Assembly: GCA_024228555.1 (NCBI GenBank)
Contig: JAAETI010000142.1
Span: 1-37,987 of the forward strand
From: a bacterium
GTDB lineage: Bacteria > Actinomycetota > Acidimicrobiia > Spongiisociales > UBA5794
Reading direction: 5' to 3'
DNA: 37,987 nucleotides
The position numbers were made by a program, and so were the translations under genes. The notes beneath the pieces are model-generated. The model worked only from the letters and a program-made list of their open reading frames with translations, was not told the DNA's origin and did no database searches. Below are positions 4,316-21,644 of the stretch, piece by piece (position 1 is the first letter of the stretch; each line of letters opens with the position of its first letter).

Positions 4316-4609
4316 GTCGACATCAGGGTTCCTTTCGCTACCACCAGAAGTCGTCGAAACTCGCTTGGTCCTGGGATGCATCGCGAGGCAACCATTGCGG
4401 CCTGGGAACACATAGCGGCCGGCACCACCATCGGAGATGCGAACGTTGAATGGATTGGTGTCAGGCACCAGATGCGGTGTCTCACTTGTGCTGCTGAGTT
4501 TCCAGGGGAGCACGCCGATCCCAGCCCACGGTGCTCCAATGTCGGCCTCGTTGTCGAATCGGCGCCGCAGATTGCCGTTGAGGATTGGGTCTTGGAGGAA
4601 CCAACCTGA
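4316..4609 (+). pseudogene. hypA: Degraded hypA (hydrogenase nickel-insertion protein)
   Basis: The in-frame tail from about 4400 reads like the HypA C-terminal half. It has an AWEHIAAGTTIGDANVEW segment, then the first zinc motif CLTC (Cys codons at 4478 and 4487). The second CPxC motif survives only as SPRC, so one zinc-binding cysteine is missing. The frame then ends with an acidic tail. Upstream, VDIRV at about 4316 fits the strand that precedes the PE..V motif, but a PEVVE segment occurs in another frame at 4344-4358, implying frameshifts. No start codon with the usual MHE opening is in frame. HypA delivers nickel to [NiFe]-hydrogenase; this copy is probably dead. Its TGA overlaps the ATG of hypC (TGATG), the coupling of an ancestral hyp operon. 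Confidence 0.6.
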
Positions 4610-4851
4610 TGTGTCTCGGCTTGATCGTTTGTCTGGAGGAGATCTGGGATTCCGGGGGTATGCCGATGGGGTGCGGCGAGCGTGCTGATGACGACGCCGT
4701 TTGCCTGGCATACGTGCCTCATTTGAGGATTGGTGATCACGTGCTGGTGCATCTGGGATTTGCACTTGCGGTGCTCGAGCCAGAGGCTGCCGCCGAGGCA
4801 GTCGCAATGCGAGAACAGCTGTCCGGCGGAGCGTCCACCACCGACCCATGA
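4609..4851 (+). CDS. hypC: HypC/HupF-family hydrogenase maturation chaperone, orphan
   Basis: This 80-residue protein begins Met-Cys-Leu-Gly, the HypC signature in which Cys2 contacts HypD and the large-subunit precursor. It ends with the family's typical block GDHVLVHLGFALAVLEPEAA at about residues 42-61. The middle departs from the common MCLGIPG opening, with LIVCLEEIWDSGG after the first residues. An AGGAGG-like site (GGAGGA at 4594-4599) lies inside the hypA remnant, and the start overlaps its stop. HypC shuttles the Fe(CN)2CO precursor during [NiFe]-hydrogenase assembly. No hypB, hypD, hypE, hypF or hydrogenase subunit is in the window. The frame looks intact, but it may be a relic or may serve a hydrogenase elsewhere. 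Confidence 0.75.
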   Translation: MCLGLIVCLEEIWDSGGMPMGCGERADDDAVCLAYVPHLRIGDHVLVHLGFALAVLEPEAAAEAVAMREQLSGGASTTDP

Positions 4852-5419
4852 TGCAGCGCTCGCCGGACATACCGGCCGGCCTCGCGTTGTTCGCGCTATG
4901 CGTCCCCACCAAACGAACACGGCTACTGCGGCCCAGATGACCATGGCGAGCACGCGACCTGCCAGCAGCAGGCTCGATCCGCGCAGCTGGAGGGTCTCCT
5001 CTTCCCGGGGAGGATCGACTGGTATTGACGTGTTGCCGGCGCCCATGATGTTGGTACGCGGTCTTCGATGCTCCCCGTCGAGTTTCCCGGCTCGAGTATC
5101 TCGAAACCGCACAATGTTGCGCGGGATCGGAAAGCGCGGCGATGGCACGGCATCACCCAAGCAGTGTCGAGCTTGTCTTCTTTCTCACGACCGTGACATA
5201 CAGTGAGATTTGCGTTTTGGGTTGGCTGGTTGGGGGGGTGTGGTCGGCACGAAGGAATCAAATCTACGAGACACGGGTTAGTTCGTTGATTTGTCTACTT
5301 CGTACCCAGAGAAGATGACTTGCCGCAACTCTGGGAACCCAAATGGACACGGCACCGGGCAGTAAGTGGTATCACGATGGGAAACTCACCTTCCCTCACT
5401 GTGTGAAGGCCGGATATCA

Positions 5420-5551: not shown

Positions 5552-5785
5552 ATGAAGGGCGTCGTGTTCACCGAGTTCGTTGAAATGGTGGAGGAGAAAT
5601 TCTCACCGGAGATAGCCGAGCGGATCATCGAGTCCTCGGACCTGCCCTCCCAAGGGATCTATACGGCGGTGGGCACCTACGGACATACCGAGATGCTGCA
5701 ACTCGTCACCCGGCTCAGCGAAGAGACAGGAATCGAGGTTCCCGACCTGGTAGGGGTGGAGCGGGCGTTGATACCGACCCGCTGA
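5552..5785 (+). pseudogene. Truncated H-NOX (heme NO-binding) domain gene
   Basis: The 77-codon frame opens MKGVVFTEFVEMVEEKF and continues through IYTAVGTYGH and a helix ending VPDLV. This matches the N-terminal subdomain of bacterial H-NOX/HNOB proteins, which usually have about 180 residues. Similarity stops at about residue 67 (near 5752). The last ten codons are unrelated, and the region with the proximal heme histidine (near residue 102 in the family) is missing, so heme binding is not expected. A good GGAGG site at 5541-5545 precedes the ATG, so the fragment may still be translated. Downstream, the minus-strand signal peptidase gene occupies the space where the rest should be, pointing to a deletion junction. 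Confidence 0.7.
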
Positions 5786-16985: not shown

Positions 16986-19900
16986 TTGTCCACACCTCGC
17001 TTTCCCGGTATCCGCGTCACGACAAACGGCAACCAGCTGGTGTCCTATCACACTGAGGCCCGCATCACCCAAGGTGGTGTGTTCTACCCGATCACGCCCT
17101 CCACCGAGATGGGTGAGAACTATCAGTTGTCCTATGCGGAAGGGAAGCTGGACGTCTTTGGGCTCCCGAAAATCGCTATCGAGGCCGAGGGGGAGCACGC
17201 CGCCCAGGGCGGGGCGATAGCGTATTCAGCCGCGGGTCATCGTGTCGTCAACTTCACCTCCGGCCAGGGCATTGTCTACGGGATCGAGCAGTATTACCAC
17301 GCTCCCGGCAAGCTCTCCACCATGGTGCTGGAAGTGGCCGCCCGGGCCCTCACCAAGCACGCCCTCAATGTGCATTGCGGCCATGACGATGTCTACGCCG
17401 CGCTCGACACCGGGTGGATCATGCTGTTTGCCCGTGATTCGCAGCAGGCGGCCGACCAAGCGCTGATCCTGCGCAAGGTCACCGAGCTTGCCCTCAACCC
17501 TGGCATCAACATCCAGGATGGCTTTCTCACCTCGCATCTGGAGCGCACCTTCTACAAAGCTGAGTCGGATCTGCTGCGGGAGTTCCTCGGGCGGCCGGAC
17601 GACATCATCGACTGCCCGACGGAAGCGCAGCGACTGCTGTTCGGCCCGACCCGTCGTCGAGTGCCGGTGATGGTCGATTTGGAGAATCCACTCCTGTTGG
17701 GGCCCGTGCAGAACCAAGAGCACTACATGAACGGTGTGATCGCACGACGAAGCAACTTCTCCGAGCCGATCCTCGGCTTCCTTCAGGAGGCCTACGACGA
17801 GTTCGCCAACCTGACCGGACGCAAGTACGGCATGGTCACTGAGTACAAAACCGAGGATGCAGACACGGTATTCGTCTCGCTCGGCTCAGCTGCCGAGAAC
17901 ATCGAGGCGGGCGTCGACTATCTGCGCGCCTACGATGAAGCCAAGGTGGGTTCGGTCCACCTCAACGTCATCCGACCGTTCCCTGTTGCGGCAGTGGTTG
18001 AGACCCTTGCGGGGAAGAAGCGAGTCATTGTCCTCGAACGTACCGACGAGCCCTTGGCCCACGACAATCCAATCACCAGGGACATCCGGGTCGCTCTCAA
18101 CAAGGCGGTGGAGGCGGGCCGGGAAGGATTCGAGAATGACGTCCCTGCAATAAGTCCCTCTGATGTGCCGTTGATCGTCAGCGGATCCTACGGGCTTGGT
18201 TCGCGTGACTTCCGACCTGAGGCGATTCTCGGAGCCTACGAATACGTGACCGGGCAAACCCGTCGCGGCGACGGTTCCGGCGTCGACGACGGAGCCACGT
18301 ATTTCACTCTCGGAATCGATCATCCTTACGCCGTGTCTTCGGAGCGCACTCCGTCGCTGCTCCCTGACGATTCTGTGGCTGTGCGCCTGCATTCGATCGG
18401 TGGTTGGGGCATGATCACCACCGGGAAGAACCTCAGCGAGATCATTGGCGCCGTCGGTGACGATTTGATTGCCGCATCAAACGATACCGATGAGTTTGGG
18501 CGACCCAAGGAGATCATCCACGTCAGCGCCAACCCCAAATACGGGTCGGAGAAGAAAGGCGCCCCCACCTCATATTTCCTCGTCGCAGCACCGCAGCGGA
18601 TTCGAGTCAACTGCGACCTCCACCACGTCAACGTCGTTTTGTGTTGCGACCCCAAGGTATTCACTCACACGAACCCGCTTTCTGGTCTGACCGACGGTGG
18701 CATCTTCGTGTGGGAATCCGAGGAGGACCCTGAGACAGTTTGGGAACGGATCCCAGTCAAATACAGACAGGAACTGATCGACCGCAGGATCCGCATCTAT
18801 ACGTTGCCGGGATTCAAGATTGCTCGGGGTGCTACCGACCGGGAGGATCTGCAGCTACGGATGCAGGGCAATGCGTTCCTCGGTGCGTTCTTTGCAGTCT
18901 CGGGGATCCTCGAGGATTACGACGTGACTCAAGCCAGGTTCCGGGAGATCGTGCTGGCTCAGTACAACAAGAAGTTCGGCCGATTCGGCGACGCGGTCGT
19001 CGAATCGAACATGCAAGTGATGACCAGCGGCTACGAGTCGGTGCGCGAAGTTGCGTACGGTGATCTCGACGCGACCGATCGTTCGTCGATGCGCGAACCA
19101 GCTCTGGCCGTGTGTGACGGTTGCTCCCCGGACCTTGCCTCATATCTTGCCCCGGAGAGCAATGAGGTGAGGATCCCGCTGGCGAGGATCAGGACGTTCG
19201 ACAAGGAGTACCGCAACGGGTTCGGCTACGACCAACCCTCGACTCCGCTCGCTTCGATCGGTGTAATGGCTGCCGCTTCGGGACGAACCGCTTCCAAGTA
19301 CGTTGCCCGTCGTGAAACACCGGTCTGGATAGCGGAGAACTGCACCGCATGCATGGACTGCATCACCGCCTGTCCCGACACCGCCCTGCCCAACACCGCC
19401 CAGGACATGAGCACCATCTTGGCCACAGCGGCCAAGGCCTACGTAGCCGACCGAGGGGAGCGGGACATCCTGCTGCGGGTCCTGCCCGAGCTGGAAGATC
19501 GGGTCCGCACCAGGATGACGGCGATCCTGGGCGACAAGGAGAAGGTGCCGTTCAAGGACATTCTCCACATCGAGCTAGAGGCGCTCGATGTCGACGACGT
19601 GGCCCGCAAGCAGTACCTGGAGCTCTTCGACCGAGTGCCGTTCGCCTATACCAAGACAGCCGGCATCTTCCGCACCAAAGAGCGCAAGGAAGAGGGGTCC
19701 GGGGGCCTGTTCTCGATCATGGTCTCCGACTTGTGCAAGGGCTGCGGCGAATGCGTGTTTGAGTGCCCGCATGAGGCGCTGGAAATGGCGCAGGAGACTG
19801 CTGAACTCAATGCAGACCATGTGAGCGGGACGAACTTTCTCGACCTGCTCGAGGACACTCCTGCGAAGTACCTGGGTCGGTTCGACCCGGAGGATCCGGT

Positions 19901-21644
19901 CGAGTCGGCAGCAGCACATCTCAAGAACCACTTGATGGTGCGCAGCAACTACGAGGCGTTGGTTAGCGGCGATGGGGCGTGCGCCGGTTGCGGGGAGAAG
20001 AGCGTGCTGCACGCGGTGACATCACTCACCGAGGCGTACATGAGGCCGCTCTATCACGCCAAGGCACAGCGTCTCGAGGCGACCGCCGTTCGGCTCGACG
20101 ATGGCGGCGCTACTCGACTAGAGCAGCTGGCGGCAGCGAGCCCGGGGCAATACCAGCTCTTCAAGCGGACCGTGGCCCACATCTTGCTCGGTCTTGGCGG
20201 AGAGTCGGAGGAGGACACAGATGCCCGACTGGCGGCGCACGGTCCCATCACCGACCGTGAGGTGGTCACTGCGCTGACGACGGTTATGCGGCAAGACGCC
20301 TTCAACCACCGTGACCTGCAGGCGGTCGACGGGATGATGCCGAATGGGATGTCGGTGATGGCGATGGGTGCTCACACGGGGTGCAACACGGTTTATGGGT
20401 CAACTCCGCCCAACAACCCGCACCCGTACCCTTGGATGAACTCGCTCTTCCAAGACGGTTCGACAGTGGCGTGGTTGCTCGGGGAGAGTTTCATCATGGA
20501 CCACGCCCGGCGTTCGGTGATCCCGGAAAGGTTGGCGGACATGCTGCTGGACCAAGAAGATGCCGTCATCACCGAGGCCGACTATTTCGAACTGACACAT
20601 ATGAACGACGCAGCCATGACTGCCCGCGAGATACGAGAGTTGCCCAAGGCATGGGCTGTTGGCGGTGACGGCGGGATGGGCGACATCGGATTCCAAAACG
20701 TCTCCAAGGTGGTCCTGCAGAACCGCCCCAACGTGAAGCTGCTCATGCTGGACACTCAGGTGTACTCAAACACCGGTGGCCAGAACTCGGACTCGTCACC
20801 GATGCCGGGCGGTGGCGACATGAACCAGTTCGGTGTTGCGTCAGAGGGCAAGTTCACTGAAAAGAAGAGCGTCTCCGAGACGTTCCTCGGCGGTCACGGG
20901 TCACCATTCGTCGCACAGGTGTCGATGGCGAATGTTGCTCAGTTCTACAAAGCGATCATTGAGGCTCTGGACTACAGAGGCACTGCGTTCCTGCAGTCGT
21001 TCACTACGTGCCAACCCGAACACGGCGTACCGGACAATATGTCGACGATCCAGGCGAATCGAGCCCGTGACGGACGCAACATGCCGCAGTTCGTGTTCAA
21101 CCCACAACGAGGCGAGACCTATGCGGAGGCTCTCGATTTGGCAGGCAACCCCAGTCGGGATCGGGACTGGGCCGAAGTTACATCCAAGAGCAGCGGTGAG
21201 AAGTACTCGTACACGGTGGCCCATTGGGCGGCCACCGAGGCAAGGTTCCGTAGGCACTTCCGTCCGGTGAAGGACACGACGGGCCTGACCCACCTCGACG
21301 ACATCCTGACGCTGATCATGCAGGACGACGTTGTGCAGCGGCGGGTGCTCGACCCTGCACATCGGTCCTATGTGGAGGACTTCGGTGTTTACCTCGAAAC
21401 CGACGACGAGAACGGCCAACGCACCCTGGTCCTGTCTCGCCAGATGGTCCTGTTTTGTGTCGAGCGGCGCAAGGCGTGGCGTCTCTTGCAGAGCAGGGCT
21501 GGTGTCGTCAACCCGGACTACGAGGCCCAAAGGGCTGTACTGGCAACGCTGGAGGAGGACCCGGTGGCTGCTGAGGAGCTGATAGCAGTTGCTAGGGAAA
21601 GGCTGGCGGAGCGGGTCGCAGCGCTGGGCGACGCAACAGGGTGA
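16986..21644 (+). CDS. nifJ: Single-chain pyruvate:ferredoxin/flavodoxin oxidoreductase, enlarged
   Basis: This 1552-residue fused 2-oxoacid:acceptor oxidoreductase converts pyruvate and CoA to acetyl-CoA and CO2, passing electrons to ferredoxin or flavodoxin. The N-terminal domain shows YPITPSTEMGE (about residues 33-43). Two [4Fe-4S] ferredoxin motifs follow, CTACMDCITACP (from Cys786) and CKGCGECVFECP (from Cys917). CAGCGEK (about 999) provides ligands for the TPP-proximal cluster, and GGDGGMGDIGFQN (about 1225) starts the TPP site. Typical NifJ has about 1170-1230 residues. Here the ferredoxin motifs are about 131 residues apart, roughly 75 more than usual, and the N- and C-terminal parts are also longer. 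The TTG start is preceded by GAAGGA. Confidence 0.9.
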   Translation: MSTPRFPGIRVTTNGNQLVSYHTEARITQGGVFYPITPSTEMGENYQLSYAEGKLDVFGLPKIAIEAEGEHAAQGGAIAYSAAGHRVVNFTSGQGIVYGIEQYYHAPGKLSTMVLEVAARALTKHALNVHCGHDDVYAALDTGWIMLFARDSQQAADQALILRKVTELALNPGINIQDGFLTSHLERTFYKAESDLLREFLGRPDDIIDCPTEAQRLLFGPTRRRVPVMVDLENPLLLGPVQNQEHYMNGVIARRSNFSEPILGFLQEAYDEFANLTGRKYGMVTEYKTEDADTVFVSLGSAAENIEAGVDYLRAYDEAKVGSVHLNVIRPFPVAAVVETLAGKKRVIVLERTDEPLAHDNPITRDIRVALNKAVEAGREGFENDVPAISPSDVPLIVSGSYGLGSRDFRPEAILGAYEYVTGQTRRGDGSGVDDGATYFTLGIDHPYAVSSERTPSLLPDDSVAVRLHSIGGWGMITTGKNLSEIIGAVGDDLIAASNDTDEFGRPKEIIHVSANPKYGSEKKGAPTSYFLVAAPQRIRVNCDLHHVNVVLCCDPKVFTHTNPLSGLTDGGIFVWESEEDPETVWERIPVKYRQELIDRRIRIYTLPGFKIARGATDREDLQLRMQGNAFLGAFFAVSGILEDYDVTQARFREIVLAQYNKKFGRFGDAVVESNMQVMTSGYESVREVAYGDLDATDRSSMREPALAVCDGCSPDLASYLAPESNEVRIPLARIRTFDKEYRNGFGYDQPSTPLASIGVMAAASGRTASKYVARRETPVWIAENCTACMDCITACPDTALPNTAQDMSTILATAAKAYVADRGERDILLRVLPELEDRVRTRMTAILGDKEKVPFKDILHIELEALDVDDVARKQYLELFDRVPFAYTKTAGIFRTKERKEEGSGGLFSIMVSDLCKGCGECVFECPHEALEMAQETAELNADHVSGTNFLDLLEDTPAKYLGRFDPEDPVESAAAHLKNHLMVRSNYEALVSGDGACAGCGEKSVLHAVTSLTEAYMRPLYHAKAQRLEATAVRLDDGGATRLEQLAAASPGQYQLFKRTVAHILLGLGGESEEDTDARLAAHGPITDREVVTALTTVMRQDAFNHRDLQAVDGMMPNGMSVMAMGAHTGCNTVYGSTPPNNPHPYPWMNSLFQDGSTVAWLLGESFIMDHARRSVIPERLADMLLDQEDAVITEADYFELTHMNDAAMTAREIRELPKAWAVGGDGGMGDIGFQNVSKVVLQNRPNVKLLMLDTQVYSNTGGQNSDSSPMPGGGDMNQFGVASEGKFTEKKSVSETFLGGHGSPFVAQVSMANVAQFYKAIIEALDYRGTAFLQSFTTCQPEHGVPDNMSTIQANRARDGRNMPQFVFNPQRGETYAEALDLAGNPSRDRDWAEVTSKSSGEKYSYTVAHWAATEARFRRHFRPVKDTTGLTHLDDILTLIMQDDVVQRRVLDPAHRSYVEDFGVYLETDDENGQRTLVLSRQMVLFCVERRKAWRLLQSRAGVVNPDYEAQRAVLATLEEDPVAAEELIAVARERLAERVAALGDATG

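Follow-up and report, generated by a model that had tools for sequence, protein, structure and literature searches.

The 37,987-nucleotide stretch analyzed here (the window) raises the question of why a hypA-like segment and a hypC gene stand side by side, and whether either of them is still in use. The initial annotation had offered two readings of the pair, namely what is left of a vanished [NiFe]-hydrogenase cluster or a HypC kept for another use, and had remarked that no other hydrogenase gene lies nearby. The latter statement holds, as no hydrogenase gene was recovered among the other open reading frames scanned in the window, and neither a large nor a small structural subunit was found in it. 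We interpret the region from 4364 to 4944 (Table 1) as the decaying 3' end of an operon for a respiratory, membrane-bound uptake [NiFe]-hydrogenase of group 1, a reading to which we assign a probability of about 0.84.

Table 1. Remnants recognized in the window and intact loci of the same HypC subtype without an adjoining hypA
Feature	Location	Strand	State or match
hypA remnant, C-terminal two thirds, stop codon included	4364..4609	+	one open frame
hypC, variant subtype, open frame	4609..4851	+	PF01455 45.2 bits
DUF6390 (PF19927) N-terminal fragment	4869..4944	+	frameshift near 4893, ends after GPDDH
variant hypC + DUF6390 locus, G023	L035 8523-9698		intact
variant hypC + DUF6390 locus, G273	L101 9831-10919		intact

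The resemblance of the hypA segment to HypA is genuine, with a frameshift-aware profile score of 134 across 4364-4606 where shuffled DNA does not exceed 31, and its closest relatives are the HypA proteins of group-1 operons. This similarity runs in a single frame free of insertions and deletions, which removes the mixed frames formerly ascribed to the gene, and the recognizable portion starts further downstream than the left edge of 4316 first proposed. With the standard HypA profile (PF01155) the remnant reaches only 25.1 bits, under the cut-off of 28.9, over profile positions 40-109. The N-terminal approximately 30 residues, including the MHE nickel motif, are not detectable in any frame at the locus, similarity to residues 1-29 being absent throughout. 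The zinc site (CxxC...CxxC) is also broken, as already suspected from the first inspection: the third of its four cysteines, invariant in all nine intact operon HypA proteins compared, is replaced by serine (C85S in alignment numbering). More generally, the remnant has lost 5 of 13 invariant residues, against no more than two in intact members, and ranks lowest in leave-one-out profile comparisons (72.9 bits, versus 80.7-112.7 for intact members). A remnant of the HyaD protease gene was sought upstream, and nothing clearly over chance level emerged.

The stop codon of hypA and the start codon of hypC share the sequence TGATG (4607-4611), in agreement with the overlap initially described. The identity of the second gene as a hypC is likewise borne out, as its product matches PF01455 (HupF/HypC) above the cut-off of 28.5 bits over profile positions 1-63 of 65. 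The more restrictive TIGR00074 gives 36.8 against a cut-off of 48, and the intact copy of the same subtype in genome G042 similarly falls under this cut-off. Compared with five intact members of its subtype, the window HypC is 39-46% identical; its gene remains open from a start codon over the full length, and the N-terminal MCLG with Cys2 and the conserved histidine (H50 in alignment numbering) are retained. The cysteine of the N-terminal Met-Cys has been shown to be an essential residue in E. coli HypC (PMC10847431). The glycine following the MCLG motif (Gly7), which is invariant in 12 of 12 intact HypC proteins compared, is a valine in the window copy. Leave-one-out profiles also rank the latter lowest within the subtype, at 77.5 bits as compared with 93.2-113.4 for the intact copies, and it lacks 5 of the 22 residues shared without exception by the other five members, as opposed to 0-3 losses among intact members. 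The open frame of hypC is no evidence of function, given that the frame of the hypA remnant is equally devoid of stops and indels. A branch codon model rejects neutrality over the whole branch for both genes (2dlnL 5.5 for hypC and 5.1 for the hypA remnant), although synonymous change is saturated and such dN/dS tests are consequently uninformative; the near-equality of the two values suggests that both genes were under selection for the greater part of the branch and that the decay is recent. Taken on its conservation pattern, the window hypC is probably dead or dying, most plausibly a recent pseudogene on which selection would have ceased.

Downstream of hypC and on the same strand lies a third remnant, which had been overlooked in the first reading. 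It reads as IPAGLALF-(frameshift)-RYASPPNEHGYCGPDDH and corresponds to the start of DUF6390, the family name being assigned from intact relatives. The match is supported both by tblastn (E 2e-6, 78% identity across 18 residues) and by frameshift-aware scoring (86.5, against at most 32.3 for shuffled sequence), and nothing recognizable follows it after 4944. Lesions are clear in hypA and DUF6390, while hypC is counted as damaged by conservation only. Further along, at 5552-5785, we observed a truncated N-terminus of an H-NOX domain (HNOB, PF07700; profile 1-64 of 163), which terminates in a stop and shares bases with the end of a signal-peptidase-like frame read from the opposite strand. The entire segment 3966-5785, including the hydrogenase-related remnant, appears to be a run of dead genes. 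A plasmid search returned a sole match, namely this H-NOX fragment adjoining the remnant.

The origin of the three remnants becomes apparent from comparisons across 138 genomes of the same Acidimicrobiia order, among which the HypC subtype of the window is present in six, counting the window's own genome. In G042 (CAMYMH010000013.1) and G259 (JAJCYA010000004.1) it is encoded by the last gene of an operon with the order small subunit-large subunit-cytochrome b-HyaD-hypA-hypC (gene names by NCBIfam), and in G294 it ends the equivalent order from the large subunit onward, the contig beginning inside that gene. Similarity to the subunits of E. coli hydrogenases 1 and 2 identifies all three as group-1 uptake hydrogenase operons. 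HybE and DUF6390 adjoin the intact operon in both G042 and G259. Further operons in the order have hypA followed by a canonical HypC and accompanied by hypD, to which hypF and hypE are added in the family of the window. The arrangement in the window matches the variant-HypC form rather than the canonical-HypC form: as in G042 and G259, hypA is followed directly by the same HypC subtype with DUF6390 nearby. Unlike these operons, the window lacks the small and large subunits, cytochrome b, HyaD and HybE; its hypA is without a start and one zinc cysteine, and its DUF6390 is reduced to about 25 residues and placed downstream of hypC on the same strand. The gene order of the intact relatives thus leads us to regard the window locus as the tail of a group-1 operon that has lost its enzyme genes. 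In a separate observation based on sequence reading, the intact uptake operon of G042 was seen to lie among genes resembling aerobic carbon monoxide dehydrogenase subunits (L034 1-1302 and 13071-13979).

The remainder of the assembly, which totals 5.4 Mb at 97.7% completeness, is in line with this reading. No group-1 large subunit was found in it, which, together with the gene order in relatives, supports the proposal of a lost [NiFe]-hydrogenase cluster. Two large subunits are present, both short and of group-3 type, one of which shares a cluster on contig C162 with a small and a NuoF-like subunit. Maturation genes are likewise encoded elsewhere: contig C519 bears hypF-hypC-hypD and then a frame readable as hypE, which in alignment falls where operon copies have their hypE, and contig C921 bears a separate intact hypA. 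This hypA (L037 9227-10370) adjoins a gene for an Mrp/ApbC-like P-loop ATPase, not an obvious hypB. Given this intact maturation set, the hypA-hypC pair of the window is redundant, and the locus can be understood as an ordinary pseudogene remnant.

These statements on the rest of the genome depend on the assignment of the window contig to its bin. Both the fragmentation of the assembly (1027 contigs) and its size relative to genus-mates (about 3-3.6 Mb) could point to an artefact, in which the damage is an assembly error or the contig derives from another member of the family. A side observation bears on contig membership: a PFOR-type 2-oxoacid oxidoreductase gene at 16986-21641 is matched at the DNA level (70-73%) by sequences from six further genera of the family, while the genus-mates show matches of only about 55 bases or none. 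This gene may have been imported or the contig misbinned, and the PFOR matches taken with the larger assembly imply that the contig may be misassigned within the family. On the other hand, its GC content agrees with the values for four further contigs in the bin, and single base errors cannot explain both a lost hypA start and a truncated DUF6390. Moreover, a misplaced contig would alter the host but not the fact of decay, and the remnant status of the locus does not depend on the bin. We accordingly hold an artefactual origin to be improbable.

Neither the operon nor a remnant of it was found in the six genus-mates, and a DNA search of these genomes with the remnant region gave no match. This distribution, along with the patchiness of the variant subtype in the order, would also be expected if recombination had inserted part of a hydrogenase operon from a foreign source, which never functioned in the host. 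However, no repeats were found at the edges of the fragment, and most of the genus-mate assemblies are incomplete (76-92%), which lessens the weight of the absences. The GC content of the fragment (60.7%) equals that of the rest of the window, against an insertion, yet three loci bearing the subtype have values of 63-67%. We consider such an insertion very improbable, and infer that a resident operon was lost rather than a fragment imported; as the six genus-mates are without the locus, the ancestral presence of the operon in the genus, and its loss there, are putative.

A more serious alternative, if still an unlikely one, is that only hypA and DUF6390 have died, and that hypC persists as a second HypC for the group-3-type hydrogenases or in some other use. 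Beyond its open frame and retained Cys2, it draws on the situation in G023 (JASJAX010000134.1) and G273 (UBA4744, DHIO01000008.1), where an intact HypC of the subtype adjoins DUF6390 beside an ABC transporter comprising a solute-binding protein, a permease and an ATPase. No group-1 large subunit was found in either genome and no second HypC in G023 by our search, suggesting that the subtype can outlive its enzyme. Most simply, these two cases can be read as a loss of the enzyme genes in which hypC was retained for the group-3 enzymes still present. The window resembles them in combining the HypC subtype and DUF6390 with the lack of a group-1 hydrogenase in the genome. They differ from it in keeping both genes intact where the window has DUF6390 destroyed, and in possessing the ABC transporter and no adjoining hypA. 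In addition, their HypC proteins score 103 and 113 bits against the above-mentioned value for the window copy, and a canonical hypC exists in the window's genome. The latter, coupled with the excess loss of conserved residues, argues against the earlier suggestion of a HypC kept for another use; as far as this can be tested, the combination that the initial annotation had named as refuting also speaks against that use, in that a second intact hypA, hypFCDE and two group-3-type large subunits occur elsewhere, and the window hypC shows signs of decay. A variation on this theme, whereby the variant HypC, once freed from the group-1 enzyme, serves the assembly of other iron-ligand or metal centers with or without DUF6390, a task in which the window copy would still be engaged, has in our estimate only a slim chance of being correct.

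Apart from the status of the window locus, DUF6390 recurs beside one type of ABC transporter (with a PhnS2-like binding protein, permease and ATPase) at L051, L052, L053, L095, L101 and L035, irrespective of the presence of hydrogenase genes in the vicinity. This transporter also stands after the intact hydrogenase operon in G259. No paper on DUF6390 turned up in the literature library searched. Its location beside both hydrogenases and an ABC transporter offers a lead on what this domain of unknown function may do. This wider pattern, to which the association of a separate HypC subtype with these operons also belongs, is slightly more interesting than the remnant itself.

On the reading preferred here, namely a decayed uptake-hydrogenase operon, the functions of the intact state can be predicted from the known families: HypA would have delivered nickel, the HypC-type chaperone would have taken over the Fe(CN)2CO moiety from HypD and brought it to the cognate large subunit, which HyaD would have trimmed. 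Deletion would then have removed the structural genes, cytochrome b, the protease, the start of hypA and most of DUF6390, leaving the remaining pieces to drift. This accounts for an otherwise odd orphan hypA-hypC pair, and records what is probably the loss of hydrogen uptake from a lineage of Acidimicrobiia; among the papers listed by our literature search, none was seen to describe a comparable orphan HypC. HypC-type proteins pass Fe(CN)2CO from HypD to the large subunit, and the dedicated paralogues HybG and HupF each serve one uptake enzyme (PMC10847431, PMC3534401). By analogy, the variant subtype, being tied to the group-1 operon, most likely had such a dedicated-chaperone role. As with HupF (PMC3534401) and HybG (PMC10847431), the genome here encodes, in addition to a canonical HypC, a HypC-family protein associated with a single uptake hydrogenase. 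Unlike those systems, the window preserves just the HypC part, in degraded form and without its cognate large subunit.
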